Shown one piece after another: positions 1-15,145 of a stretch of DNA of 64,000 nucleotides. Position 1 is the first letter of the stretch. Each line of letters opens with the position of its first letter. Where the stretch lies: NCBI GenBank assembly GCA_963205185.1, contig CAUJHZ010000041.1, forward strand, positions 1-64,000. The letters run 5' to 3'. This DNA is from Planctomycetota bacterium (lineage in GTDB: Bacteria > Planctomycetota > Phycisphaerae > Phycisphaerales > UBA5793). The notes beneath the pieces were generated by a model. That model had not been told where the DNA came from. It saw only the letters and a program-made list of their open reading frames with translations, and made no database searches. A program made the position numbers and the translations under genes.

Positions 1-2
1 GC

Positions 3-74
3 GCCACCGAGCAGACGGCCCGCCACACCAAGCGCCTCGTCGAGGCATCTACGAAGGGACTGGCCTTCGGATGA
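3..74 (+). CDS. C-terminal end of an unidentified protein (partial)
   Basis: The third reading frame is open from the left edge and stops at TGA 72-74, giving a 23-residue tail ending in KGLAFG. The stop overlaps the ATG of the next gene as ATGA, the usual sign of translational coupling in one operon. The rest lies outside the window, so no function can be assigned. The downstream genes look phage-derived, so this may be the end of another gene of that cassette, but this is inference. Confidence 0.5.
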   Translation, partial: ATEQTARHTKRLVEASTKGLAFG

Positions 75-871
75 GCACGGAAGTTCAGGAACGCGGCATC
101 AGTCGAACGACCAGCAGCGGCCGGAGCCCATCGACCGAGCGTCTGTACTGGGTGCGCGGCACGAGTGATGATCTTGAGGCGCTCGCCGCACTCGAAGCCG
201 ACGTGCCATCGTTCTACGGCGGCCTGCCGCTCTACCAGGTGCGTGTCGAAGAGGCCGGCCCCGATCTCTACGACGGAACGGTGATCTATCAGGTCGAATC
301 ATCGACCGATTCACCTGACACCGGCGAGAGCACGTTCACCTTCGAGACCGGCGGCGGCAGCGAGCACATCACCCAGTCATCGGCCACGATCGCTTCGTAC
401 GCGCCGCCCGGAAAGACCGCGCCGGACTTCAAGGGCGCCATCGGCGTCACCGCCGACAGTGTCGAGGGTGTGGACATCGTGGTGCCGGTCTACCAGTTCA
501 CCGAGACGCACTACCTCGACGACAGTCTGGTGACGCCCGCTTATAAAGGTACGCTCTTCGCCCTCACCGGCCGGGTGAACGATGCCCCGTTCAAGGGCTT
601 CAACGCGGGTGAGTGCCTGTTCCTGGGCGTGAGCGGCTCCAAACGGGGCCAGGGCGACTGGGAACTGACGTTCCGCTTCGCCTCGCGCCCGAATCGCACC
701 GGGTTGAGCATCGGCGACATCACCGGCATCGACAAAAAGGGTTGGGAGTACCTCTGGGTCAGATATGCCGAAGCCGAGGACGCCGGCGCCGGCGCGCTGG
801 TGAAGCGGCCCGTCGCGGTCTACGTCGAGCGTGTCTACGAGAGCGGCGACTTCACGGGTCTGGGCATATGA
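71..871 (+). CDS. Hypothetical protein, phage-like cassette
   Basis: This 266-residue soluble protein has no signal peptide or membrane segment. The sequence is rich in Thr, Gly and acidic residues and looks beta-rich, with an aromatic C-terminal half (GWEYLWVRYAEAED). I do not recognise a catalytic motif. It starts with ATG inside the ATGA overlap of the preceding gene and ends 5 bases before the convergent GNAT gene. Position and coupling suggest a structural or tail-associated protein of a degenerate phage-like cassette, which I infer from layout rather than from a domain. It could equally be an unrelated conserved planctomycete protein. Confidence 0.6.
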   Translation: MSTEVQERGISRTTSSGRSPSTERLYWVRGTSDDLEALAALEADVPSFYGGLPLYQVRVEEAGPDLYDGTVIYQVESSTDSPDTGESTFTFETGGGSEHITQSSATIASYAPPGKTAPDFKGAIGVTADSVEGVDIVVPVYQFTETHYLDDSLVTPAYKGTLFALTGRVNDAPFKGFNAGECLFLGVSGSKRGQGDWELTFRFASRPNRTGLSIGDITGIDKKGWEYLWVRYAEAEDAGAGALVKRPVAVYVERVYESGDFTGLGI

Positions 872-876
872 AGCCA

Positions 877-1374
877 TCACTCGACCATGCTGAACTCGGC
901 CGCGTACTTCACGAGGCCCGCACCATGCGGCATCGACCCGGCGCGGAGTTCAAGTGCCTGGAACGCATCACCGCCCCCATACTCATCGTGCAGCCCGAAC
1001 TGAGATGCAGCCACGAACCCGAAACGGCTGTAGTACGCCGGCTCGCCCAGCACAACGGCCCATCCGGCATCCAGCGACCGGCACGCGTCGAGCCCGGCTT
1101 CGATCAGCGCCGCGCCGATCCCACGCCGCCGGTGCGATTCGAGCACGGCAACCGGAGCGAGCCCAACGCCGGCCGCGCCGGATTCAGCACGCACCGGACT
1201 GAATGCGACGTGGCCGACCACGCGATCCTCATCAATCGCCACCATCGACACAGTCAGGTGACCGCGTTGCCGCAATGCATCCACAAGCCGCGCTTCCGCG
1301 TCCGTCTGAAACGACGCGGCGAGCACTGCGTGGATGGAGTCTGCGTCTCGTGGTTCCTCAGGGCGAATCAGCAC
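877..1374 (-). CDS. GNAT-family N-acetyltransferase
   Basis: A 165-residue acetyltransferase of the GNAT fold, predicted to transfer acetyl from acetyl-CoA to an amine; the substrate is unknown. The N-terminal strand (LIRPEEPRDADSI) is typical. The acetyl-CoA pyrophosphate loop is seen as HRRRGIGAALIEAGLD near residues 80-95, matching the R/Q-x-x-G-x-G/A signature. The later GEPAYYSRFGF segment is characteristic of YhbS-like members. The start is GTG at 1374, preceded by a GGAGG box about eight bases upstream. The gene faces against both neighbours and interrupts an otherwise plus-strand cassette, so it looks like an independently acquired cargo gene. Confidence 0.88.
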   Translation of the reverse strand: MLIRPEEPRDADSIHAVLAASFQTDAEARLVDALRQRGHLTVSMVAIDEDRVVGHVAFSPVRAESGAAGVGLAPVAVLESHRRRGIGAALIEAGLDACRSLDAGWAVVLGEPAYYSRFGFVAASQFGLHDEYGGGDAFQALELRAGSMPHGAGLVKYAAEFSMVE

Positions 1375-1436
1375 CGTTCATCCTCCAGCGCGGCCCGGCC
1401 GTCGCGCGGGCTGCCGATTGTACGGGGAATGCACCC

Positions 1437-2231
1437 ATGAGTGGCGACGCCCTGCGCAAGGTGAAGTCCGGCGACCCGCTCAGAATCCCTGCCGGGGCCT
1501 ACAACGCCTTCGTCGATGCCGCCATCGATCTGCGCCACCGCCAGCATGAGGAAAGTCGCGAGCCGCAGCGCCTTCGCCGCGACAACGACATCATCCTCGT
1601 GCTCAACTCGACGGGTTCGACCGTGAACCGCTTCGGCGTGCTGGCCATCACGGACCCGATCATCGCCCCCACTGATGCTCTCGAACTTGAGCGTGTCGCG
1701 TTCACGGGCGTGGTTCCCGCCGCCGAGCATGCCGGGAAGTTCGCGATTCTCCTCGAGACCGCCGCGCCCGGCGCCATCGTCCGCGCCGCCATGGGCGGCG
1801 TGGTGCCGGTGAAGATCGGCATGGCCAGTGCTGACGATGAGTTCGCGGATGTCTCACCTGGATTCACCGACCGGCTGTTGAGCGGCGACAGTGGCGCGGC
1901 ACAGATCCTGTGGGTCGAAGAGTCGATCAGCACGACGCGACAAGCGATCGTCCGCCTGCCCGCGGGCGGCGCATCGGTTTGTCTCGCTTCGAACAGTGGC
2001 CTGGCCTTCGACGCCAACGGCTGTCTCAAGATCGACACTACCGTGAACAGCACCGTGCAGCTCACGCTCGTCACCGGCGTCACGCACGCCATCGTCGGTA
2101 ACGTGCTGCGCATCACGGCCCAGCGATCGATCATCACGCTCTCGCGCAACGTGGCCGGCGTGGTCATCGGCGTCGGCGCCACGCCCACCACGGACCAGAC
2201 CAGCGATGTCAACCTTGAAAGTTGTCCGTAA
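1437..2231 (+). CDS. Hypothetical protein, phage-like cassette
   Basis: A 264-residue protein starting at ATG 1437 (MSGDALRKVKSGDPLRIP). The frame is open further upstream, but that part lies antisense to the GNAT gene and has no protein-like character. The middle part is beta-rich and repetitive in hydrophobic/Gly pattern (GVVPVKIGMASADDEFADV), and the C-terminal third is Thr/Val-rich. There are no membrane segments and no known catalytic motif. It ends with TAATG, sharing a base with the next gene's start. Probably a virion-like or baseplate-like protein family in planctomycete genomes, but that is a guess from context. Confidence 0.6.
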   Translation: MSGDALRKVKSGDPLRIPAGAYNAFVDAAIDLRHRQHEESREPQRLRRDNDIILVLNSTGSTVNRFGVLAITDPIIAPTDALELERVAFTGVVPAAEHAGKFAILLETAAPGAIVRAAMGGVVPVKIGMASADDEFADVSPGFTDRLLSGDSGAAQILWVEESISTTRQAIVRLPAGGASVCLASNSGLAFDANGCLKIDTTVNSTVQLTLVTGVTHAIVGNVLRITAQRSIITLSRNVAGVVIGVGATPTTDQTSDVNLESCP

Positions 2232-3187
2232 TGCCTCTCATCTTCGGTCCATCCGGCAATGCGCTCCTGCTCGGTCCGACCGGCCTGCCCGCGACGAGCA
2301 CGAAGTGCTGCTGCTGCAAAGAGGGCGAAGACTGTCCGCACTGCCTGTGCTGCGAGTGCTGGGTGTGCGGCGACGGGATCAAGCACGCGCTTCCGACCGC
2401 GGGCTGCCACAACGCGAGCGGCAAGGCCTGTCTGACCGTGACGCTCAGCGGCCTGACGTTCGTGACGAACTGCCGGACATTTCGGGGGAATGACTGCGTG
2501 GCCGCGCCGGGCACGTGGGCGTCGTACAAGTACCTCTCCGCCGCGATGCCCGATCTGGTGTTGCCTTTCAATTGGAACGACGGTGCGCACACGCCCATCC
2601 GCGACCCCGACCTGCCGTGCGCTGAGATCGCGCCCGGCACGGTCTGCCGCCAGTGGCACATGTGCGTCGTGCTGCCGGATACTGGCATCGACGCCACGCA
2701 GTACGTCAACGCGAACTGCACCGGCACGAGCAACACGTTCAGCGTGCTCATCACCAGCGCCGTGCTCGACTACCAGGTCGTCGGGACGACGCGCCGCTTC
2801 ATCCTCTGGGTCACCGCCTCGCCCGCCGGCACCATCCCGATCCCCATCTTCTTCGGCGCGGCGAGTTTTGATGCCCGACAGTGCGCCAACTACTCGACCT
2901 GGCCGCTGGTCATCCCCAACGGCCTGACCAGCACCGCCTGCCTGTGCGGCGGATCAGGCACAGCGATGCATCCGGCCGCGACAGGCGGCACGGCGACATT
3001 GACAATGGCATGTGATACGGATTGCAGTGGATTCAATGGTGGCGCGGGGCTGGCATCAATCGAGGCGTCGGGCCCGCGGATCGCGCCGCACCGGTTAGTG
3101 GATGCGGCCGCAGTTGATTTGGCAGATGCGCGCGAGGAGCGGCGGCTCGGGTGTCTGAACTGCCGCAAACGGAGATCGACCGCATGA
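2231..3187 (+). CDS. Cysteine-rich hypothetical protein, phage-like cassette
   Basis: A 318-residue protein whose start codon overlaps the stop of the previous gene (TAATG). The N-terminal region carries a dense cysteine cluster around residues 22-43 (CCCCKEGEDCPHCLCCECWV), likely a metal-binding or disulphide-rich knot. More scattered cysteines (ACLCGGSG, CDTDCSGF) follow, and a short basic tail with a CxxC pair (LGCLNCRKRR). I do not recognise the family. The cluster resembles neither a classical zinc finger nor a haem motif. Coupling to the upstream gene suggests a shared role. The next 95 bases before the convergent wHTH gene hold nothing I can identify. Confidence 0.6.
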   Translation: MPLIFGPSGNALLLGPTGLPATSTKCCCCKEGEDCPHCLCCECWVCGDGIKHALPTAGCHNASGKACLTVTLSGLTFVTNCRTFRGNDCVAAPGTWASYKYLSAAMPDLVLPFNWNDGAHTPIRDPDLPCAEIAPGTVCRQWHMCVVLPDTGIDATQYVNANCTGTSNTFSVLITSAVLDYQVVGTTRRFILWVTASPAGTIPIPIFFGAASFDARQCANYSTWPLVIPNGLTSTACLCGGSGTAMHPAATGGTATLTMACDTDCSGFNGGAGLASIEASGPRIAPHRLVDAAAVDLADAREERRLGCLNCRKRRSTA

Positions 3188-3282: not shown

Positions 3283-3708
3283 CTACTTCGCCGTATACTG
3301 GCCGCGCCCCTTCTTCTTGAAGAGGTCCTTGCGTTTGAGCAGGGTGATGTTGACCATCGTCCGGAAGTTTCCGGAGTGGGTCTTGTATCCGGCATCCTGA
3401 ACGGCTTGAGCTGCCTCCGCAACTCCCATCGTCTTGCCCGTCAATACCTCACGCAGGGCGGCGTGAAGTGGCACCTTGTTCGTCGCACGGGTGGTTGCGG
3501 CACTGGTCCGGCGACCGCGCCTGTTCTTCGCGCCGTTGGTTGTTAACGGTGCAGAGCCTTCCAGCGCCGCAATCTCGGCGTCCAACCGCTCCAGTTCTCT
3601 CGCCATCTCGATGCGCTTGACCTCGAGTGCGCTGGCGTGCGCGGCTCGGCGTTCGATCTCGCGGCGAAGATCGGTTGTGGAAATGCGGGCGAGTTTGGGT
3701 CGGGGCAT
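3283..3708 (-). CDS. Small coiled-coil plus HARE-HTH-like protein
   Basis: A 141-residue basic protein. Residues about 10-52 form a predicted coiled coil (REIERRAAHASALEVKRIE). A Thr/Arg-rich linker follows, then a winged-helix-like C-terminal domain (PLHAALREVLTGKTMGVAEA) ending in a basic KKKGRGQYTAK wing. The pattern fits the HARE-HTH group of DNA-binding modules. A GGAGAG box lies upstream of the ATG at 3708. It is transcribed in the same direction as the ATPase-ParB-recombinase group but is separated from it by about 200 bases. It could be a DNA-binding accessory of that module or an independent gene. Confidence 0.75.
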   Translation of the reverse strand: MPRPKLARISTTDLRREIERRAAHASALEVKRIEMARELERLDAEIAALEGSAPLTTNGAKNRRGRRTSAATTRATNKVPLHAALREVLTGKTMGVAEAAQAVQDAGYKTHSGNFRTMVNITLLKRKDLFKKKGRGQYTAK

Positions 3709-3907: not shown

Positions 3908-4825
3908 TCAGGACGCGGCTTTGCAGATCGTGGTTGTCCTGAATGACGGCGACAGTCTGCGCCTGAGTCGGTAGTAGGTGGCGCGCGACCGCCCGGTCAC
4001 GCGAGCGAAGGCTTCAATCCGATCCCTCTCTGTCGAATAGGTGGGATCAAGCGCGAGTTCGGCGACGATGGCGAGATGTCGATCACTCAGCATCATCTGG
4101 AGGAGGCTGACCTTCCAGTCGCGGAATCCTGCCTCACGAAGCTTCTGAGCCTTGGCGTACCAGCGCATCGACACGGCTTGCACCGCGGACAGATGCGCCC
4201 CGATGAACTGGTGGATCTCCTCGTCCCGGCACCATTGCCGCGCCTGGGCATGGACACTGTCATTCGTGGGATCAAAGTGGATGATGATCGCCCGATCCTC
4301 GAGGGCGCGAACGTTCGCATTGAGTGAGCGCCATTCGTTGGCGATCAGAATCACGGGGCTCTTGGTTTCGAACGCGGAGGGCGGCCCCGAACCGTTCATC
4401 GTGGCGTGCGTCAGCCACGAGACGCGCTTGGTCAATCGGCTCTCACATAGGGGTTTGAGCAATCGCACGCAATCGCTGTTGGCGTAGAGCCGATCGACGT
4501 CGTCGAGCACGACCGGCTGGTCTCGGTGATCCCACAGACCCCGGTAGATGCCAAAGGGCTGCGCATGTCCCTCCACGTAGAGCGGCCCCGCCCCGGATCG
4601 AGCGCGAACCGCGAGCATCCGCCGCACTCGCTCCGACTTCCCGGTGCCATGACGACCGATGATCAAGAGCAGATCAAGCGCTCCGCTGGCCACTCGATCG
4701 ACGTAAAGGTCCAAATCCTGATAGCTCGCGACCGTAATCGCGTCTGTCGGCAAACTCGGCTGATCGCCGGCGCGGCTCATCACCGAGGGAGGGCGGAGAA
4801 TGAAAACCGTGAGATTTTGAGACAC
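3908..4825 (-). CDS. AAA-type P-loop ATPase of recombinase/ParB module
   Basis: A 305-residue predicted ATPase. Walker A is visible as IGRHGTGKS (residues ~56-64) and Walker B as PVVLDDVD (~103-110). A sensor-1-like VILIANEW follows, and an arginine-rich helix-turn-helix-like tail (VTGRSRATYYRLRRRL) that may bind DNA. The fold is reminiscent of TniB/IstB-like DNA-transposition ATPases, but I cannot place it in a named family. It is the last gene of a minus-strand series recombinase - ParB-like - RepB-like - ATPase, 19 bases after the RepB-like stop. The start is uncertain: GTG 4825 is 15 bases from the AGGAGG at 4841-4846. An ATG at 4780 is the alternative, and an out-of-frame 17-codon ORF (4833-4780) has the better-placed ribosome site. 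Confidence 0.75.
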   Translation of the reverse strand: MSQNLTVFILRPPSVMSRAGDQPSLPTDAITVASYQDLDLYVDRVASGALDLLLIIGRHGTGKSERVRRMLAVRARSGAGPLYVEGHAQPFGIYRGLWDHRDQPVVLDDVDRLYANSDCVRLLKPLCESRLTKRVSWLTHATMNGSGPPSAFETKSPVILIANEWRSLNANVRALEDRAIIIHFDPTNDSVHAQARQWCRDEEIHQFIGAHLSAVQAVSMRWYAKAQKLREAGFRDWKVSLLQMMLSDRHLAIVAELALDPTYSTERDRIEAFARVTGRSRATYYRLRRRLSPSFRTTTICKAAS

Positions 4826-4844
4826 AGCCGCATTCTCGACCCTC

Positions 4845-5741
4845 CTACCGCGTACCGAGGTCCGTGGCTTCGGCGAGCTTCTCGAACTCGCCCATGATGT
4901 CCGGGTACTCTCGCGCGAGGAACTTCACTACGGCGGTGTTCTCGAGCAGTCGCCGGATGAAGCCGACCGCCAGAACGAGGTTGAGCACGTTTCTGCCGTG
5001 CGACTCTTCGATCTGCCGAAAGTCCTGCTCGATGGTCTGCATTTCGCGCTCAATCCGCGCGATGTCGTCGGCTCGGAGCCCCTCGATCTCCTTTGGCTGC
5101 TCCGCTTCGACGAGCTGTTCCTGGGCGGTCGCGGCGACGAGGCACTTGGCATAGGAAGCGGAGAAGTTGTGCGCGGCGCCCATCAGTTCCGCCATCTCGA
5201 TCTGCCGCATCGGAAGGACTCGGCGATACTCCCGCAGCGCCCCCGGGGCAATGAGGCGCTCCTTGAGGAGTTCAACCGCTTCAGGGCAGATGCCTTCGAG
5301 CATGTCGCGCTTCTTGCGAATCGCCGTGATATCCACGTCCAGAGTCTCGGCGAGCCTCTGCTCCGAAACGCCGTTTCCGAGCGCCTTCATGATCATGAAG
5401 TGCTCCTGAATCGGGGCAATCTGGTTCACCTTGTGGTTGTAGGTGAATGTCTCGTCATCGGTGGCGATCAGGCAGAAGACCTCCGTGTGACCTGCATCCT
5501 TGAGAACGTGGTATCTCAGATGACCGTCCACGATGAGGAATCGCGCGTCCTTTCCCACTGAACCGTTCTGCGGAAAGACAACGATCGGCTCGATGATGCC
5601 AACCTGGGCGATAGACGCGGCGATGCGCCGGTACTTCCTCGAACTCTTGGTCGATTTCTGCACCGCGCGCAATGGAAGAAGGCTGTCCAGCGGAATCACC
5701 CTGCCTTGGGGCTCAAATGCCATCTTGACGCGCGCCGGCAC
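4845..5741 (-). CDS. ParB/RepB-like DNA-binding partition-type protein
   Basis: A 298-residue protein with a ParB-type N-terminal domain (IPLDSLLPLR, then IAQVGIIEPIVVFP and FLIVDGHLRYHVL). The usual arginine-rich GERR box is replaced by DGHLRY, so CTPase activity needs testing. A central helix-turn-helix region (LAETLDVDITAIRKKRDMLE) and a helical RepB-like C-terminal half follow, with a predicted coiled coil at about residues 210-245. It begins with GTG at 5741, three bases after the stop of the upstream ParB-like gene, with GGGAGG inside that gene's end as ribosome site. It probably acts with the neighbouring ParB-like protein and ATPase. There is no ParA gene here, so ordinary plasmid partition is unlikely. 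Confidence 0.82.
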   Translation of the reverse strand: MPARVKMAFEPQGRVIPLDSLLPLRAVQKSTKSSRKYRRIAASIAQVGIIEPIVVFPQNGSVGKDARFLIVDGHLRYHVLKDAGHTEVFCLIATDDETFTYNHKVNQIAPIQEHFMIMKALGNGVSEQRLAETLDVDITAIRKKRDMLEGICPEAVELLKERLIAPGALREYRRVLPMRQIEMAELMGAAHNFSASYAKCLVAATAQEQLVEAEQPKEIEGLRADDIARIEREMQTIEQDFRQIEESHGRNVLNLVLAVGFIRRLLENTAVVKFLAREYPDIMGEFEKLAEATDLGTR

Positions 5742-5744
5742 TGC

Positions 5745-6629
5745 TCAGTTCCTCCCGTTGGCAATTTGGTCGGCCAGGTACTGAGGCATCTCGTCCAGTG
5801 CTTCAGCACGCAACAGGGTGACGAAGTTCACATCGCGCAACAGCTGCCTGACGGCGGAGACGACGAACAGGAGCCGTGTTTCACACATCTTGGCCTTCTT
5901 GATGACGGTTCGCTGTCGCGTCATTTCCCGCTGGTACGCTCGCATCAAACCGTTTGAATCGACCGCCTCCCTCGGGTTACCGCGGCCGGGATGTCCTCGC
6001 CCCCGAATGCGCCGCACCTCGATGAGCTTCCTGGCGCGGAGCAGTTCCTTGCCGCGGAGGCTCTTCTTTTCATACGCATCCGCCAGCGCCTTCTGCACCT
6101 CGGCATCGTCGGCGCTGGCGATTGTGATCGCGATCGACAAGGGAATCTGACCCTTCTCGACGGCGCGAACAAGCCGCTCCTCTCCCTTGTTGAGCAGCCG
6201 GATGACGCCCTTGACGTAGCTGACATGCAAGTCGGTCTTCTTGGCAATCTGGGCGTAGCTGTTGCCGCGCTCCCTCAGGGCGGTGATCTCCTTCATCAGC
6301 TCCAGAGACGTGTGAGTGCGCCGAGCCAGGTTCTCCGCCAGGCTCATGAGCAGAAGGTCCTGCTTGGACGCTTCGATCACGAACGCAGGCACCTCGGACT
6401 GCCCAAGAAGTTGGTACGCTTCCAGGCGGCCCTGACCGCAGACGAGGTCGTACTGCGGATCGCCGCCGCGGGTCTTTCGCCGAGCGACGGTCACGGGCCG
6501 TTTCAGTCCCAGGTTCGAGATGTTCGTGACGATCTGCTTGAACTTCTCCTTGCCCCGCGAACGGGGGTTGATCACCGTGATCCGATCGATCGGGATCATC
6601 TCGATTTTCCGGCGGCGGTCATTTGTCAT
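5745..6629 (-). CDS. ParB-like protein (ParB N-terminal domain)
   Basis: A 294-residue ParB-family protein. The start is ATG 6629 (MTNDRRRKIEMIPIDRI), which overlaps the recombinase stop as ATGA; the longer open frame upstream is antiparallel background. The N-terminal domain shows the ParB layout: IPIDRITVINPRSR, then LGLKRPVTVARR, YDLVCGQGRLEAYQLLG (the GQGRLEA box) and an ENLARR motif. A helix-turn-helix follows (SYAQIAKKTDLHVSYVKGVI). The sequence keeps the Arg and acidic residues of the nucleotide-binding boxes better than its neighbour. It is co-translated with the recombinase, suggesting a role in recombination, element maintenance or target choice. Confidence 0.85.
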   Translation of the reverse strand: MTNDRRRKIEMIPIDRITVINPRSRGKEKFKQIVTNISNLGLKRPVTVARRKTRGGDPQYDLVCGQGRLEAYQLLGQSEVPAFVIEASKQDLLLMSLAENLARRTHTSLELMKEITALRERGNSYAQIAKKTDLHVSYVKGVIRLLNKGEERLVRAVEKGQIPLSIAITIASADDAEVQKALADAYEKKSLRGKELLRARKLIEVRRIRGRGHPGRGNPREAVDSNGLMRAYQREMTRQRTVIKKAKMCETRLLFVVSAVRQLLRDVNFVTLLRAEALDEMPQYLADQIANGRN

Positions 6630-8173
6630 GCGGCCTCCTCGATCCGCGCGCACTCCGCGAGGGCCAGAAAGAACTCGAGCGTGTCGAATCGATAGGTATC
6701 GATGCGGGCGCCGTTCTGCTCGTGGAGCAGCAGCTTTGGCCACTCGACATCCAGCCTCGGGATGAGGTAGTAATCCGAAGGCTGGTCGTTGGCGGGGTCC
6801 ATGCGCACCACGATCATGATGTCCGGCAGCGGCTTCTCACCGAACCGCACCAGCCACCGGTTGGCCCCGGCAGTGGTTTGGCGGCAGCGGGAGAGCACCA
6901 TCGATGCGCTGTACAGGCCGTTGATGACCAGCAGATTGGACTTCTCATCGTGCTCGATCGTCGCTCCGACCGTCTCCAGGTCCTGCACCACGTCGCCCAG
7001 CAGGTTCGGGTAGACCTGGCGCAGGCGGCGGTTGATCTCGATGTACTCGAAGTCCCGATCGGGTGTGTAGCCCGCTTGCCGGTAGGCCTGGACCAGACTC
7101 CCGAATCGCGCTCGATAGGCGGCGCTCGATGGCCCCTCACCATCGTCGATGAGTGCTCCCGAGAGGTATCCCTGTGCCGCGAGAAGCGTCTGGAGCCGCT
7201 GGATCATCTCGCCATCGGTGAATCGACGGTTCCGTTCCTGGATAATCCCGCGCGCCGTGAAGAACGCTTCCGGATCAACAATGGAGTCGAACACGGCGTC
7301 GGCGCGAACCCACGTCTCAGAAGGATTAACGATCCGCTTCTTCTTGAGTTTGAACGAAATCCGATTCCATACGTTGTTCCCGATGTACTTTTCGTTCGTG
7401 AGAATCTGGTGAATGCTGCCGCGCGACCAGGCGCGGCCCAGGTCAGTCACGACACCTTGCGCATTGAGTCGGTCGGCAATCTCCCGCTCCGTGCGGCCCT
7501 CTTCGATGAACATCCGGTAGATCGATCGCACAACCTTGACTTCATCGTCCGGCCCACGCACGAGGACGACCCGGTCAGTCTGCAGACTCTTGTGCTCGCC
7601 GCGTTTGAGCGTTCCCTTGGATTCACCACTCTGATCGATGAGCAGGCGGCGCAATCCGAAGCCCGCCGGGCCGCCCTGGCGGTATCCCATCTGAATGAGC
7701 TTGCACTGGCCCTTGAAGACCTTGGCCGAAAGCTCGCGGCTGTACTCCCCCGCCATCGCCCGTTTCACACCCTTGATGATCGTGGAGACGGGACTGCCGT
7801 CATTCTCGAACTGCTCGGCGCAGTACTCGACCTGGATGCCGGCGCGCTTGCAGATGTACTCGTAGTAGGCGCTCTCGTCGGTATCCTGGAATCTTCCCCA
7901 ACGACTGACGTCGTAGACCAGGATCGCCGCGTAATCCACGGCGCCGGATTGGACATCCTGCAGCAAGCGCTTGAGCGCGGCTCGGCCCTCGACGCGCAAT
8001 CCGCTCTTGCCTTCATCGGCGTAGGTCCGGACAATCTCGTAGCCGCGCGCCGCGGCGTATTCCCGCACCACATCACTCTGGTTCTCGGTCGAATACTGCT
8101 GGTGCTCGGTCGACATCCGGATGTACTGGGCTGCACGGATCGGCCTGGCGGGCCCAGAGGGTTCGTCTTGCAT
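6626..8173 (-). CDS. Large serine recombinase
   Basis: A 515-residue site-specific recombinase of the resolvase/invertase superfamily. The N-terminal catalytic domain contains YIRMSTEHQ, where Ser is the predicted nucleophile, plus the conserved arginine segments (VSRWGRF; GEYSRELSAKVF). It is followed by a recombinase domain (EREIADRLNAQGV; SIHQILTNEKYIGNN). The C-terminal ~180 residues lack the cysteine zinc ribbon of phage integrases and carry another uncharacterised domain. The gene heads a four-gene series and its stop overlaps the ParB-like start. No attachment repeats are obvious to me. Upstream (8174-8305) there is room for a promoter but no clear box. Confidence 0.92.
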   Translation of the reverse strand: MQDEPSGPARPIRAAQYIRMSTEHQQYSTENQSDVVREYAAARGYEIVRTYADEGKSGLRVEGRAALKRLLQDVQSGAVDYAAILVYDVSRWGRFQDTDESAYYEYICKRAGIQVEYCAEQFENDGSPVSTIIKGVKRAMAGEYSRELSAKVFKGQCKLIQMGYRQGGPAGFGLRRLLIDQSGESKGTLKRGEHKSLQTDRVVLVRGPDDEVKVVRSIYRMFIEEGRTEREIADRLNAQGVVTDLGRAWSRGSIHQILTNEKYIGNNVWNRISFKLKKKRIVNPSETWVRADAVFDSIVDPEAFFTARGIIQERNRRFTDGEMIQRLQTLLAAQGYLSGALIDDGEGPSSAAYRARFGSLVQAYRQAGYTPDRDFEYIEINRRLRQVYPNLLGDVVQDLETVGATIEHDEKSNLLVINGLYSASMVLSRCRQTTAGANRWLVRFGEKPLPDIMIVVRMDPANDQPSDYYLIPRLDVEWPKLLLHEQNGARIDTYRFDTLEFFLALAECARIEEAA

Positions 8174-8305
8174 AAGTTTGAACTGCCTTCCCCGGGGTGC
8201 GGTGAGTCATCGAGTATCGCGACCGTCTCGTAGCTGAGACGGCGAACATTGTGACGAACCGATGTCCATCGGCAGTCCAATCCGCGTCCAATTCCGATCC
8301 AATCT

Positions 8306-8746
8306 TTAGCGACGGCCATCGAGCATGAGCCCGTACCGCCCTGCGTTGCGTCCGTCGATTGCCTGCGCCAGATCGGCCATTCCCGCCGCAATCAACTGAC
8401 TGCGGAGGTTGTTGACGGCGCTGCGCAGCGCCGACGCCGATCGCGGGCCGCCCCAGATGTCGCGCAGGAGTCGTTCGTGCGGCACGTACTGATTGGGACG
8501 GCGAGCCAATCGCGCGAGCAGTCGGAATGGGATGGTGTATCCCATGTGACATCGGAGCCCGTTCCAGGTGACTGTCAGTTGCTGCTGGTCGATCGTCAGG
8601 CCGCTCGATGGCGGAAGTCGACTGTCGCGGGTGTCACCGTCCGCCAGCGCGCCAGCAACTGCTTCCATTTTGTCCGCGACGTCGCGCAGCGCCGTCGAGA
8701 GATCCGAGAGCATGTCGCCGAGATCGGGAGGGAGAGAATCGTTCAT
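8306..8746 (-). CDS. Small winged-helix (OmpR-type) DNA-binding protein
   Basis: A 146-residue protein starting at ATG 8746, chosen because an AAAGGAG box lies eight bases upstream; a longer frame exists without a ribosome site. The N-terminal half is acidic and helical (LPPDLGDMLSDLSTALRDVA). The C-terminal half looks like an OmpR/PhoB-type winged helix (FRLLARLARRPNQYVPHERL, then LRDIWGG and AVNNLRSQL). There is no receiver domain. It lies upstream of and in the same direction as the recombinase, separated by about 130 bases, so it may regulate that module. That role is inferred from position. Confidence 0.75.
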   Translation of the reverse strand: MNDSLPPDLGDMLSDLSTALRDVADKMEAVAGALADGDTRDSRLPPSSGLTIDQQQLTVTWNGLRCHMGYTIPFRLLARLARRPNQYVPHERLLRDIWGGPRSASALRSAVNNLRSQLIAAGMADLAQAIDGRNAGRYGLMLDGRR

Positions 8747-8932
8747 GCGTGCTGCTCCTTTGAAGAGCAGCATCGGCAGACCGGCGATTCAAGCATCCCA
8801 GCCCCACTTTCGAGCACGGTATTCCACATCGACCGAGGATTTCCGGAGAACCGGACGGTCCTCTGCGGGCCAGCCGTCCAGTTCGGGGGTAGACTGTGAC
8901 GGTCGATCCTGGCCGGGGGCGCGGAGCCATCG

Positions 8933-11900
8933 ATGAGCAGCCAGATTCTCGAAATCTACGCCGCTTCGCTCACGACGTACCTGCCCGCGGCCGCGAGTTT
9001 GGTGCAGGATGTGGCGCCCCGCGCGATCCAGCGCGGCGTGAACCTGGATGGCGCCTTGCGCGAAGCGCCGGGGATCGCGATCGCCCTCGCGGGCAATCCG
9101 CTTGAGGGCGAGGCAAGCGGCAACTGGAACCGCAACAACCGCATCTGCGGCGATGTCCGCCTCGATGCCGGCACGTATTCCCCGTTCGACATCGATCTCG
9201 CACTGCCCGCGCCGGGTTTCTCATGGATGATCGGGCGGACCTACAACGCGCGGCAGGATGTCGATGGCAGCCATCACGACAGCGATGGCTACCAGGGTCG
9301 GAACTGGTTCCAGACGAGCCAGCCGGAGATCCTCCTTTATGATGATCCCTCCGACGCCGCCAATGATGTCCTGTATCTGATCTACGGCGCGGACCGCTAC
9401 ATCGAGTTCAAACGCGAAGGCACAAGCAGCAATCAGTTCAAGTCGAAGAACGGTGCTGCGGGCGCGTTCGAATGGGTGGCGGCCGGAGGCGTCGGCGAAC
9501 CGGAAACCTACATCTACACCGACCAGCACGGCACCCGGGTGTACTTCTTCGGTTTCGACACCGACGCGGGCGTGGCCAAGGGGCAGATATGGAAGATCGT
9601 CGACGCTGATGGCAACACGGCGTACGTCGGGCACGAGACAACCCCGAGCACCGCGATCACCAATGGCTTCCACACCAACGGCGGCATCAAACTCGCCTTC
9701 GACAGCGCCGACCGCCGGTACACCTATTCCTACACGACACTCGACAGTATCGATCGCCTTACTCAGGTCAAAGTCGAGATCGATGTGAGCGGCTGGGTCG
9801 AGGTGAACCGCGTCGATTACGCCTATTACACTTCTGCGGACACGACCTACGGCGAAGCGGGCAACCTTCAGCTGGTGACGATCACGACGCCGCTGACGGA
9901 CACATCGAAGTCGATGATCCGCAAGAAGTACTACCGCTACCACAAGTCCGGCGACACCAACGGCACCTCCTACCAGGTCAAGCTCGTCGTCGGCTTTGAG
10001 GGGACGCGCAACTTCGACTGGACGCAGGATGGCCAGTTCGATGATGACTTCCTGACCGCGAGCCAGAGTGCGCTGCTCGATTACGCGGAGGCATACCTCG
10101 AGTATTCGAGCCGGCAGATTTCACTGGCGACCTTCAACGGCCAGCGCGCCTGTTCGGGCATCGCCACCGGCGAAGGCACCTACGAGTTCACCTACGCCAC
10201 CAACGGGAGCCATCCGGGCGGGAGCGGTTATGACGAAGAGTGGCTCTACCGCACCGTCGTCGAGTTACCCGACACGACCTACCTGACGCAGTACTTCGAT
10301 GAAGTCGGCCAGCCATTGGCTCAAGTCCGCACCAAACTCGATCCCACGCAGACGAGCGGACAATTGACCTGGGCGACGCAGGTCGTCCGCGACAGCCGCG
10401 GTGGCATCACCGACATCCACACGCCCGCCAACGTCACCGCCTACACCCACTCGACGGGCTCGTTCACGTTGAGTTCATCGGCTGGGCTGATCACCACCAT
10501 TGTGCGCCAGTCGTCGGGCGACCTGACCGGCTTCCTCACCGACCTGAAGCACAAGACGGGCACGAGCGGGTCGGCTTACCTCGATCTGACGCTGACCTAT
10601 ACGACCACGAGCAAGACGATCGGGGACTCGACGGTGGTGCGGCCTCTGGTGGCGAGCCGGCGCATCTACGAGGATGAGATCACCTCGGGCACGACCAACT
10701 CGCATCTCACCAGTCTGAGCTACACCTTCTATACCGGCGACGCCGTGCTCATGCCCAAGGAAGTGACGACGACCCTGCCCGCCGTCACCACGGGCAAGAA
10801 CGGTTCAGGGACGGCGAATACCTCCAAACAGTTCTTTCTCGAGGATGGCACGCTCCAGTTCGAGAAGAACGCCGAGGATCGCATCGACTACAGCGAGTTC
10901 TCCGGCGGCCAGCTCGTGAAGCGGATCATCGACGCCGACACGACCAGCGGCGACTTCAGCGGCATCACCATCCCGACAGGATTCTCGAGCACCGGCTCGC
11001 CCCTGCACCGCAAGACGACCTACACCTACGACCGCCAGGGGCGGCTGGATGTGATGAACGCGACCGCGGCGGGCGGACTGGTCAAGAAGACCAACCACTC
11101 GATGCTGGCCAGTCGCCTCGCGGTGACACTCGCCTACTCCAATTACGACAATGTGGCCGACCCCGACGTCTTCTACGGCCCCGTCCAGTACGTGATCACC
11201 AATCATGCCGGCCGCCAGGTCTACCAGTGCGTCATCGAACTGACGGACAACGAATCGACCACGGCCATCAACAGCCAGGTGGACACGACCGAGAGCGATG
11301 TGATCGACGCGGTGGCCAACCTGGGCAACTGCCACATCCTCACCAAGACGATCTTCAACGCGACGGGCGTGCGCGCTACGGCCCAGTGGCAGTACCACCT
11401 CCGCCCGCCGATTCCTGTGAGCGGCTCGACGGGTGAGGGTTCGCAGGGCACGAACTACGACGTGACGACCTTCACCCACGATGCGATGGGCCGCCTGATC
11501 CGCACCAAGACTCCGGCAGGCACGATCAGCCGCAACGAGTTCGACACGCTGGGCCGGGCGGTGAGCCAGGAGATCGGCACCAACGACAATGGCGACCCGG
11601 GCGGCGACACTTCGGGCACCAACAACATGGTCGTCGTCTCGGAGACCGAGTACGACGGCGGCAGTGATGGCGGCAACTCCTACATCACCAGTCAGACCGC
11701 CTACATCCGCGACAACTCGACGGGAAGTCGGGAGACTACTTTCGAACACGACGTGCGCGGCCGGGTGCTGCTCCAGACCAATCCCACCGAGCCCAAGTTC
11801 ATCCTCAACAAGTTCGACAACCTCGGCCGTCTCGTCGCCTCGGGCCAGTACAAAGATGGGAATGTCAGCGCCTCGGACAATCCCGTCACACGCTCGACGG

Positions 11901-14900
11901 ATCGCCTGAGCCTGGCGCAGTCCTTCTTCGATGAACTCGGCCGCACCTGGAAGACGACGCGCCACAAGATCAACCAGTCCACCGGCGCCGATGACGATTC
12001 GCTCGCGTTCCTGACGTGGTATGACAAGGTCGGGCGGGTCATGAAGAGCCAGGGCGAAGAGCTCACCAAGACCTATCACGACCGGCTCGACCGGGTGACG
12101 CACCGCTTCACCCTCGCGAGCACTGACGATTCGAGTTACGCCGACGCCCAGACCGTCACCGGCGACATCGTCCTCGAAGAGAACCAGACCGTCTACGACC
12201 CTGATGGCGATGAGGTCCTGATGCAGGTGCTCATCCAGCGCAAGCATGAGGATGCCGGCACGGGCCAGACGACCGGACCGCTGGACACCAACGCCGACAA
12301 CGACCCGATGAAGATCACTGCGTCGGATGTCAAGGGCCGGGCCCAGATCACCGCCCTGTGGTACGACGATCTCCACCGCCTCACCGACACCGTGATGTAC
12401 GGCACCAACGGCGGCAGCACCTTCGATCGAACGAATCTCAGCATCCCCGCGCGCTCGGACACCGCCCTGCGCACCACGACGACCTACGACCTCATGAGTC
12501 GCGCCGAGACGATCGAAGATCCGATGGGCCGCGTGAGCAAGTTCGAGTACGACGACGCCAGCCGCCAGACAAAGGTGATCCGCAACTACGACCCGAACAC
12601 CAACAGTGGCGAGCCCTCAGGCACGGACATCAACCAGACCGTCGAGTACGTCTACACCAACGGCCTCCAAACCTCGATCACCCAGCGGATGACGGGCAGC
12701 GGCAACGACGAAACCACCAACTACACCTACGGCACGACCAAGGGCACCAGCGCCGGGGATTCCAGGATCGCCACCGGCCACCTGCTCCAGAAGGTGCAGT
12801 ATCCCGACTCGCTCACCGCGGCTGATGTCGTGACCTTCGCCTACAACGCGCAGGCGGAGACGATCTGGACCAAGGATCAGGTCGGCCGGGTGATGGAATA
12901 TGACTTCGATGATTCCGGCCGCAGGACTCACGAGCGCGTCACCACCTCGGGCGGCTTCGACACCGCCATCCTGCGCCTCTCGACCACCTATGACAACCAC
13001 GGCCGCGTGAACCTCGTCTCCTCCTACGACAACGCGACGGTGGGCAGCGGCACTGTCCAGAACCAGGTGCAGTACGCCTACGACGACTGGGGCAACCTCG
13101 CATCCTTTACCCAGAACCGCAGCGGCGCGATCTCGACGGGCACGAGCAGCGACGAGTACGCGATCGCGTATGCCTGGGAGAAGAAGGAGCCGACCAGCGC
13201 CCGGCGGACATTGCGCCGAACGCAGATGACCCTGCCCAACAGCGGTGTCCTGTCGTATCTCTACGAATCGACCGACGGCCTGCACGATGACAACGCCAGC
13301 CGTGTGACGCGGATCGCCGAGGGCTCGGGCGGCGGGGCGACCAATCGCGTCCGCTACGCCTACCTCGGCGTCGGCAGTCTCGTCGGCACCGTCTACAACC
13401 AACCCAGCCCGGTCGTCACGTCGCTGCTGTTCAACAGCAGCGACGCCTACGACGCGATGGATCGGTTCAACCGCATCACCGAGTCGCGCTGGAAGCAAAG
13501 CACGACCGACCTCTACAAGGTCGCGCTGGGCTACGACCGCAATTCGAACCTGCTCACCGCCGACGATTCGGTGCAGACCGGCTTCGACTGGAAATACACC
13601 AACGACATGCTCGAGCGCCTGACTCAGGCACAGGCGGGCACGCTCAGCGGCGGCAGCATCACCAGCGAGACCCGCAAGCAGGTCTTCGATCTCGACCAGG
13701 TCGGCAACTGGACGCACACCGACCTCGTCACCGGCGGCTCCACCACCGAGTTCGACTGGGACTTCACCCACAACAAGGTCAACGAGATCACCGGCTGGGA
13801 CAACCAGACGAATAATGTGACGCCGACCTACGACGCCGCTGGCAACCTGACCGATGACAAGCGCGACTGGAAGTACGAGTACGATGCGTGGTATCGGCTC
13901 GTCAGGATCAAGGACCAGTCGAACAATGTCAAGGCGGAGTTCGTCTACAACGCGCTGGGATTCCGGCTCAGCGCCCGCTACGACGAGACGGCTCCGTGGT
14001 ATCACTTCGCATACGACGAGCGCTGGCGGATTGTGGCGATGTACGAGGATGATGCCGACGCCTCCGAGCCGACGGAGCAGTTCTGGTATCACAATGCCGG
14101 GGCTTCGGGCCTGGGCGGATCGTCGTACATCGACGATGTGGTCCTGCGCGACCGCGACACCGACGCTAATGGCGCGATCGATGAACGTCGCTACTACCTC
14201 CAGAACCAGCACCACGATGTAGTCGCCCTGATCAACACCTCCGGATCGATCAGCGAACGCGTCAACTACGACCCCTACGGCTCGCCGGTCGGCACCTTCA
14301 CCTCGATCGCCAACCGCAAGGGCTACGCCGGCTATGAATACGACGCTGAATTGGGCGACACGTACCACGTCCGCCACCGCGTCTACCGCAGCGATCTCGG
14401 CGTGTGGACGCGGCGCGATCCGCTCGGGTATGTCGATGGATTGAGCCTGTACGAGTACGTGCGTTCACGCCCCCTGATGCTGGCCGATCCATTCGGCGCA
14501 GTAGGGCGGTTCAGCGGAACTGATATCGGGGAACAATGCGATCCTCTTTTGCCGTGTGAGAATCCAGCGGCGTGCGATGAGTGCCGTGGTGGGCCCGGTG
14601 TAACGCCCAATGGTCCGCCTGATGAGAAGGATCCACCCGCTCCCGGTATGGACAGGGCAGAAATGCGGTGCAGAGGCATCTTGCTTCCGGTGCCTGCACC
14701 GGTTCACTGCTTTATCCGATGTTGTCCGAGTGATGGATCGAAGTGCAGGACTTATAGTCTGAACAAGGATGGAGACTGCGCCCGAATTCGCATTGATGAC
14801 CCAAGCGACCGGGATAAGGCGAATGGCCGACCTCGAGGTGCCCGCTACAGGACGGTGCGTGGCGCGAACCTTTGCAAGTGTCTGAAAGCAGGGCTTGACG

Positions 14901-15145
14901 ACATCACCAAAGGCGGTGACTGCCCCTACAACTATAAGTTCAATAGCTGCAATTCGAACTGGTTCGCCAACGCTATGTGGCGATGTTGTACTGGGCAGTA
15001 CCCGGGCGCACCTATCACTGCTCCGTTCGGAATGCACTGGGACTGCTGTAGGCAGAATCACTGCGGCGATAACTGTTATTTCAAGTGTAATTATGAAGGC
15101 GCTCCCGGCCAAGGGCTAAACTACTGCTGCGCATGTGCCCGGTAG
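8933..15145 (+). CDS. RHS-repeat protein with cysteine-rich C-terminal tip
   Basis: A 2070-residue RHS/YD-repeat protein, a family that forms a hollow beta cocoon and often carries toxin tips. The N-terminal part (GDVRLDAGTYSPFDIDLALP) resembles the DUF6531-type entry region. Dozens of YD-type repeats follow (YDRQGRLDV, FDTLGRAVSQ, YDDASRQTK). The RHS core-associated segment lies at about residues 1775-1860, from YDPYGSP through YVRSRPLMLADPFG. The ~210-residue tip after it has 24 cysteines and is more A+T-rich, typical of a swapped variable domain. A stretch NSNWFANAMWRCC hints at a papain-like/NlpC-type motif, but weakly. No PAAR domain or signal peptide is seen. The downstream lipoprotein could be a partner. 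Confidence 0.93.
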   Translation: MSSQILEIYAASLTTYLPAAASLVQDVAPRAIQRGVNLDGALREAPGIAIALAGNPLEGEASGNWNRNNRICGDVRLDAGTYSPFDIDLALPAPGFSWMIGRTYNARQDVDGSHHDSDGYQGRNWFQTSQPEILLYDDPSDAANDVLYLIYGADRYIEFKREGTSSNQFKSKNGAAGAFEWVAAGGVGEPETYIYTDQHGTRVYFFGFDTDAGVAKGQIWKIVDADGNTAYVGHETTPSTAITNGFHTNGGIKLAFDSADRRYTYSYTTLDSIDRLTQVKVEIDVSGWVEVNRVDYAYYTSADTTYGEAGNLQLVTITTPLTDTSKSMIRKKYYRYHKSGDTNGTSYQVKLVVGFEGTRNFDWTQDGQFDDDFLTASQSALLDYAEAYLEYSSRQISLATFNGQRACSGIATGEGTYEFTYATNGSHPGGSGYDEEWLYRTVVELPDTTYLTQYFDEVGQPLAQVRTKLDPTQTSGQLTWATQVVRDSRGGITDIHTPANVTAYTHSTGSFTLSSSAGLITTIVRQSSGDLTGFLTDLKHKTGTSGSAYLDLTLTYTTTSKTIGDSTVVRPLVASRRIYEDEITSGTTNSHLTSLSYTFYTGDAVLMPKEVTTTLPAVTTGKNGSGTANTSKQFFLEDGTLQFEKNAEDRIDYSEFSGGQLVKRIIDADTTSGDFSGITIPTGFSSTGSPLHRKTTYTYDRQGRLDVMNATAAGGLVKKTNHSMLASRLAVTLAYSNYDNVADPDVFYGPVQYVITNHAGRQVYQCVIELTDNESTTAINSQVDTTESDVIDAVANLGNCHILTKTIFNATGVRATAQWQYHLRPPIPVSGSTGEGSQGTNYDVTTFTHDAMGRLIRTKTPAGTISRNEFDTLGRAVSQEIGTNDNGDPGGDTSGTNNMVVVSETEYDGGSDGGNSYITSQTAYIRDNSTGSRETTFEHDVRGRVLLQTNPTEPKFILNKFDNLGRLVASGQYKDGNVSASDNPVTRSTDRLSLAQSFFDELGRTWKTTRHKINQSTGADDDSLAFLTWYDKVGRVMKSQGEELTKTYHDRLDRVTHRFTLASTDDSSYADAQTVTGDIVLEENQTVYDPDGDEVLMQVLIQRKHEDAGTGQTTGPLDTNADNDPMKITASDVKGRAQITALWYDDLHRLTDTVMYGTNGGSTFDRTNLSIPARSDTALRTTTTYDLMSRAETIEDPMGRVSKFEYDDASRQTKVIRNYDPNTNSGEPSGTDINQTVEYVYTNGLQTSITQRMTGSGNDETTNYTYGTTKGTSAGDSRIATGHLLQKVQYPDSLTAADVVTFAYNAQAETIWTKDQVGRVMEYDFDDSGRRTHERVTTSGGFDTAILRLSTTYDNHGRVNLVSSYDNATVGSGTVQNQVQYAYDDWGNLASFTQNRSGAISTGTSSDEYAIAYAWEKKEPTSARRTLRRTQMTLPNSGVLSYLYESTDGLHDDNASRVTRIAEGSGGGATNRVRYAYLGVGSLVGTVYNQPSPVVTSLLFNSSDAYDAMDRFNRITESRWKQSTTDLYKVALGYDRNSNLLTADDSVQTGFDWKYTNDMLERLTQAQAGTLSGGSITSETRKQVFDLDQVGNWTHTDLVTGGSTTEFDWDFTHNKVNEITGWDNQTNNVTPTYDAAGNLTDDKRDWKYEYDAWYRLVRIKDQSNNVKAEFVYNALGFRLSARYDETAPWYHFAYDERWRIVAMYEDDADASEPTEQFWYHNAGASGLGGSSYIDDVVLRDRDTDANGAIDERRYYLQNQHHDVVALINTSGSISERVNYDPYGSPVGTFTSIANRKGYAGYEYDAELGDTYHVRHRVYRSDLGVWTRRDPLGYVDGLSLYEYVRSRPLMLADPFGAVGRFSGTDIGEQCDPLLPCENPAACDECRGGPGVTPNGPPDEKDPPAPGMDRAEMRCRGILLPVPAPVHCFIRCCPSDGSKCRTYSLNKDGDCARIRIDDPSDRDKANGRPRGARYRTVRGANLCKCLKAGLDDITKGGDCPYNYKFNSCNSNWFANAMWRCCTGQYPGAPITAPFGMHWDCCRQNHCGDNCYFKCNYEGAPGQGLNYCCACAR

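Follow-up and report, generated by a model that had tools for sequence, protein, structure and literature searches.

A conserved recombinase-ParB-RepB gene module in a planctomycete genome, on plasmids and in viral contigs: a candidate site-specific recombination cassette

Serine integrases have found wide use as tools for genome work; their directionality factors vary greatly and are not easily recognised. The large serine integrases, such as those of phiC31, SPbeta (SprA/YokA), TP901-1, Bxb1 and Listeria LI/A118, share their N-terminal resolvase and recombinase domains with a recombinase, hereafter REC, that is encoded in the DNA studied here: positions 1 to 64,000 of contig CAUJHZ010000041.1 from a Planctomycetota bacterium (assembly GCA_963205185.1), the whole of which we call the window. 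Unlike these enzymes, REC lacks a zinc ribbon, a coiled coil is not evident in it, and it is followed, by coupled translation, by two ParB-family genes, ParB1 and RepB2. A study of phiC31 integrase reports that coiled coils mediate synapsis and that gp3, the directionality factor, attaches to the zinc domain close to the coiled coil (PMC5814800). Because REC lacks the zinc ribbon, something else would have to do this work, and the two adjacent proteins are natural candidates. The reading that we prefer, and to which we give slightly better than an even chance, is that these genes form an integrase-type recombination cassette in which the two ParB-family proteins serve the recombinase as accessory factors, for synapsis or for directionality.

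The other close relatives are the partition systems of the RepABC and ParABS types (RepB, ParB/Spo0J, Noc, KorB), which have in common with the module the ParB_N and RepB domains and a helix-turn-helix (HTH), and whose GxGR and ENxxR motifs are kept by ParB1. Unlike them, the module has no adjacent RepA or ParA and no parS that we could find, its genes lie behind a recombinase, and the nucleotide motif of RepB2 has diverged. Serine recombinases, which might belong to the REC clade, are also carried by alphaproteobacterial prophages of the Paracoccus virome; in the passages of that report, the largest serine recombinase cluster (11) had no identified integration site, no ParB or RepB genes are described behind a recombinase, and the ParB-Tls locus adjoins terminase genes, unlike ParB1 and RepB2 (PMC6536676). 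A published description of our gene set did not turn up in open-access titles, abstracts and a few passages, and we regard its novelty as provisional.

In the window, the module occupies positions 3908-8773 on the minus strand and runs wHTH (winged HTH), REC, ParB1, RepB2 and AAA, with all five open reading frames (ORFs) intact. An earlier note on this DNA had described the last four as a tightly packed module. These four genes are indeed real, intact and all on the minus strand, and the packing is as claimed: the REC stop and the ParB1 start overlap as ATGA, and the gaps downstream are 3 bp (ParB1-RepB2) and 19 bp (RepB2-AAA). The note had missed the first gene of the operon, wHTH (8306-8773), and had listed AAA with the others, whereas the comparisons below make it an optional gene. 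ParB1 (5745-6629) and RepB2 (4845-5741), described there as unequal, are of nearly the same length, 294 and 298 amino acids (aa); the 332-aa ORF version of ParB1 results from a GTG start that precedes the overlapping ATG.

REC (6626-8173, minus strand, 515 aa) has the two N-terminal domains of large serine integrases, the resolvase catalytic domain (PF00239, E 6e-23) and the recombinase domain (PF07508, E 9e-22), and matches phrog_95, annotated 'integrase', at E 9e-57. The catalytic serine, S21, and R19 are invariant in 36 sequences. The profile of REC and its AlphaFold2 model, which is of moderate confidence (pLDDT 65), both align with serine integrases over the catalytic and recombinase domains, and large serine integrases are their best matches in the PDB; the model matches those of SPbeta, phiC31 and Bxb1. 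The claim that the recombinase lacks the zinc ribbon was borne out: there was no match to PF13408, and beyond residue 320 the protein contains only two cysteines. The C-terminal region shows a weak HNH_repeat-like helical motif (E 0.03, sub-threshold) and a beta-rich part, modelled with low to moderate confidence as short helices and strands. A second REC lineage, on Agrobacterium plasmids (L144-L147), adjoins TniA-TniB-TniQ transposition genes and might act as their resolvase.

The order of REC, ParB1 and RepB2, whose absence from other genomes the earlier note had named as a refutation, is clearly conserved in several phyla. The loci compared came from one scan of genome contigs, which gave 26 related loci, and from further plasmid and whole-genome loci. 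All three genes were identified in 47 of 50 tabulated loci and were contiguous in 45; the two non-contiguous cases are L016, with a split REC, and L140, with a shortened ParB1. At the REC/ParB1 junction the spacing is -4, the ATGA overlap, in 39 of 49 cases and -1 in 8, and this near-invariance upholds the suggestion that ParB1 is co-translated with the recombinase. Order and spacing persist across Planctomycetota, Myxococcota, Verrucomicrobiota and proteobacterial plasmids, and ParB1 homologs (E<=1e-20, 49 plasmid records) come nearly all from records that also hold REC.

The distribution of the module is patchy, with 13 of 397 sampled genomes of the host class (about 3%) carrying it, as expected for a mobile entity. 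The host assembly (4.55 Mb, 76 contigs) has a single copy and four relatives of the same genus have none, whereas the cultured Rhodopirellula europaea 6C has two (L022 and L025); in E. coli genomes, the Pseudomonas copy was unmatched. The module occurs on plasmids, and commonly also on chromosomes and in provirus contigs. In pairs of loci, the common stretch often begins shortly before the first gene and ends with the RepB2 stop, beyond which the sequences diverge; some pairs (L006/L007, L129/L130 and the Sphingobium plasmids) share sequence beyond the module. The same module has been exchanged among many unrelated contexts. A variant in Mesorhizobium pMLb (L053, 7953-10342) combines a REC of about 47% identity with only one gene behind it, which has a RepB domain but no detected ParB N-terminal domain.

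A scan of IMG/VR gave 115 contigs with a REC relative, and the whole triad was present in 58 of the 66 examined loci that had enough downstream room; triad-negative were L193, which is partial, and eight more distant relatives (L223-L230), whose RECs have 42-46% identity. Presence of the triad changes twice on a tree of 56 RECs, against 7.6 times when shuffled; linkage of the three genes is clade-wide, and plasmid and viral copies interleave. The window REC groups with that of viral contig L151 (75% identity), which holds all five genes. In L158, a peptidase M15 gene and then a DUF2793 tail-type gene lie downstream of RepB2, that is, lysis and tail genes. Terminase matches over the cut-off were found for two families in 2 and 3 of 42 viral contigs; with so few, many contigs are fragments or unproven phages, and the viral label is unproven for most.

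The sharpest boundaries were seen in Agrobacterium. A unit of 3904 bp, 96.9% identical between plasmids pAtC58 and pAt1D1460, consists of a divergent gene, REC, ParB1 and RepB2; its flanks on the two plasmids are unrelated, and similarity drops to background within about 20 bp at both sides. Both edges fall in a sequence of about 21 bp, CGCCTTGAnnGGAnTnGAACC, in direct orientation at each end. The left and right copies differ at two n positions following CCTTGA, so that the crossover, if one made them, would lie inside CCTTGA. Of the attachment (att) sites that the earlier note had proposed to look for, candidates, in the form of paired-site edges, were seen for the Agrobacterium copies alone; at the window copy, the module edges have no direct or inverted repeats above shuffled background. 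We infer that REC makes the edges of the Agrobacterium unit, and it may target this polar site.

The polar site is not confined to the unit. As a motif of about 29 bp, CGCCTTGAnnGGAnTYGAACCnnCGACCC, it has 58 sites over six rhizobial plasmids, among them L031 (9057 and 12939) and L052 (11494 and 15376); it often bounds units of operon size or toxin type, its strand bias is strong, and on pAtC58 it is distributed 0 versus 12 by strand, with the reversed control at about 0. The motif resembles a tRNA T-arm read backwards. A tRNA identity was rejected: T-stem pairing was absent (5 and 8 of 30), and neither Rfam nor ARAGORN gave a match. Near polar sites in L105 (2051-2102) and L085 (1150-1201) we noted a DUF3800-VI RNA, over its gathering score, and a sub-threshold abiF RNA.

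Several observations weigh against a recombination cassette served by its own ParB pair. The polar site is present at 1-24 copies per plasmid in strand-biased blocks, including on plasmids without REC, which indicates that the site predates REC or has a wider distribution and that another enzyme may have moved the unit; REC as the sole maker of polar sites was rejected on this ground, as four plasmids have sites and no REC. No direct or inverted repeats above shuffles flank the planctomycete copies, known directionality factors were not among the matches of ParB1 in the PDB set, no physical link between REC and ParB1 or RepB2 came to light, and no recombination was observed, a circular form not having been sought. 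Among 50,697 phage records, a single one, a 7.5-kb metagenomic scaffold, has the module. The position of REC in viral contigs, by contrast, favours the cassette: in 26 of 55, no more than 3.5 kb separate the start of REC from the contig end on its 5' side, against 7.8 expected (none of 5000 simulations exceeded 18). A caveat is that IMG/VR provirus ends may partly be set by integrase genes, which would make this terminal position partly circular.

Some of these points would also be met if the window module were an immobile remnant and the Agrobacterium unit merely the cargo of another enzyme that acts on the polar site. The window copy has no att repeats, the site lies on REC-free plasmids and at the end of a neighbouring fic unit (common to Shinella, Rhizobium and A. 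vitis plasmids), and broken copies of the module exist (L131, L139 and L140). This is nevertheless quite improbable in our judgement, given that the five window ORFs are intact with key residues conserved and that the module has moved through many unrelated contexts.

How far the ParB pair still resembles a partition system bears directly on its role. ParB1 (PF02195, E 3e-9, and PF07506; GQGR and ENLAR motifs) matches Spo0J, Noc, ParB and KorB structures, and its nucleotide-site motifs GxGR and ENxAR are invariant, with E99, N100, A102 and R103 unchanged in 31 sequences, which makes use of CTP plausible. RepB2 (PF07506, E 1e-39; PF02195 weak) gives weak matches to Noc/ParB structures and is closer to the RepB family. 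In alignment its CTP-site motif diverges to DGHxR, and YNxxV, a YN followed by a variable stretch, replaces ENxxR; a switching CTP clamp is doubtful for RepB2 on this showing.

The two proteins could instead belong to a maintenance module, with REC as a resolvase of multimers and the ParB pair as a stabiliser of the replicon, perhaps together with a borrowed host ParA. Both are members of partition families, many copies of the module are on plasmids, and ParA-type genes do occur elsewhere in the host genome. The module is also common on chromosomes and in provirus contigs, however, and the partition apparatus is not at hand: as the earlier note had stated, the window's contig has no ParA-type ATPase (PF13614, matched on other host contigs only), and AAA matches AAA_16, which is not ParA. 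The parS-like palindromes that it had proposed to look for were not found near the module: palindromes in its intergenic DNA numbered 2 against 5.5 expected, with no enrichment, and there was no parS of the Spo0J or RepABC type near its genes. Two GTTNNNNGCNNNNAAC matches, at 17 and 24 kb, were discarded as parS because they are at chance level. We rate the maintenance explanation as unlikely. The note had left the choice between ParB-assisted recombination and self-maintenance, and of these the first is favoured: the exact plasmid unit edges, the near-terminal provirus position, the lysis and tail neighbours and the near-invariant co-translation support it, while the lack of ParA and of a parS-like palindrome and the many chromosomal and provirus copies weaken the second. 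A role in defence was also considered and set aside, as no PADLOC model names these genes and the best weak match (E 6e-4) was to a methyltransferase via the ParB_N domain.

Regulation of the operon appears to be provided by its first gene. The wHTH protein (wHTH155; 8306-8773, minus strand, 155 aa) is an OmpR/PhoB-type C-terminal winged helix (PF00486, E 3e-7) in which the receiver domain is absent, and homologs lie upstream of REC in 30 planctomycete loci; the alphaproteobacterial copies have in its place a divergent small gene, DeoR-like in several. In the wHTH-REC gap of 31 loci, 7-mers repeated at 11 bp numbered 243 against 8.7 after shuffling, with a harmonic at 22 bp (97 against 7.6) and nothing of similar strength elsewhere, the next highest value being at 23 bp (32 against 7.9). 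The letters of the repeat vary by lineage (TCAAACG, CCCACAG, GCCACAG, TTCAACAG; ATTGGA in the window), and the window has a putative operator array at 8261-8304 (minus strand) of four 11-bp units with the core ATTGGA/GATGGA. Repeats spaced in this way are typical of OmpR/PhoB-type operators, and we propose that wHTH155 is the autoregulator of the operon.

ParB1 and RepB2 might themselves be mainly transcription regulators or silencers of a mobile element, in the manner of KorB, with REC sufficient alone. KorB is among the structures matched by ParB1, and a putative operator array in the operon indicates that regulation matters. A regulator is already supplied by wHTH, though, and two co-translated ParB genes behind REC, absent behind the distant RECs, are a better fit to a stoichiometric partner; we consider this the least probable of the explanations weighed here.

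Under the recombination reading, the module would be a portable site-specific cassette that serves proviruses as well as chromosomal elements and units borne on plasmids. Its wHTH protein would bind the 11-bp repeat operator and restrain the operon, probably by repression; on expression, REC, ParB1 and RepB2 would be made from one message by coupled translation. REC would do the cutting and rotation without the zinc domain that, in classical serine integrases, positions the site-pairing coiled coils and is switched by the directionality factor. ParB1 and RepB2 would most likely take over this task by acting on REC; they would load on DNA at the att sites or close by and there govern synapsis or direction. 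That REC shares a message with two ParB-like proteins in planctomycetes, plasmids and proviruses suggests that proteins known from segregation were co-opted to govern how mobile DNA inserts. A more specific version, which we put forward tentatively and consider rather doubtful, is that ParB-family clamps came to serve the zinc-ribbon-less REC clade as its machinery for synapsis and directionality, with ParB1 a nucleotide-gated sliding clamp and RepB2 its partner with a changed nucleotide site, spreading from the att site and deciding which sites pair. With the likely controlling proteins encoded by the next two genes and drawn from the well-studied ParB family, directionality should be readily testable in the REC clade, and ParB proteins would, if this is true, gain a function beyond partition. 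Prophages with serine recombinases that lack a recognised integration site, such as those of the Paracoccus report (PMC6536676), might be concerned too, if they fall in the REC clade.

The last gene of the window module, AAA (3908-4825, minus strand, 305 aa), is an optional extra and not a fourth core gene. Present in the window, in L021/L138, L129, L130 (truncated) and viral L151, and in the same place in L021, L129 and L151, it is missing from most other loci. The protein (PF13191, E 5e-5; phrog_1250, E 9e-17) has the Walker A motif GRHGTGKS and the Walker B motif VVLDDVD, confirming the P-loop ATPase of the earlier note; the DNA-binding-like tail described there is consistent with an HTH-like stretch whose match to PF20432 (E 0.086) is not significant. 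Its structure model (pLDDT 51) was too poor for comparison.

The upstream limit of the window module probably lies at 8811-8830, where a paralogue, elsewhere in the same genome, of the RHS-type unit next to the module begins to match: 8817-14461 is 91% identical to G000:C58, and the match ends at this limit. It was the only limit that the search for an empty site in the host genus could place, because the flanks are multicopy repeats. On the other side, 1-871, 1436-2231 and 2222-3187 belong to multicopy families with 8-19 matches in each of five genus genomes, and the multicopy sequences in 1-3187 have no PHROG match. Between them and the module, 3283-3708 encodes a 141-aa protein with no significant family match, of which the part coding for the C terminus (3283-3439) recurs in sister genomes.

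At other loci, Fic-family genes recur beside the module or the polar site (L052, 9873-11483; L056; L057; L058; L059; L129, 13169-14302; L170, 5231-6382). The DUF4172-Fic form is found in planctomycete L129, and in viral contig L170 a similar sequence adjoins REC. Other recurrent genes are HipA, AbiEii and VapBC. Arrays of tRNA genes lie near the module in Rhodopirellula maiorica (L026, 538-3352, 23 genes) and in L023 (11328-14652, 5 genes). In the window, the RHS-repeat-type ORF upstream of the module (8933-15145) encodes 2070 aa; its 91% copy elsewhere in the genome (G000:C58:15739-21380) has the window's first 228 bp attached to it, and the C-terminal ends of the copies diverge after about 14461, as in polymorphic toxins.

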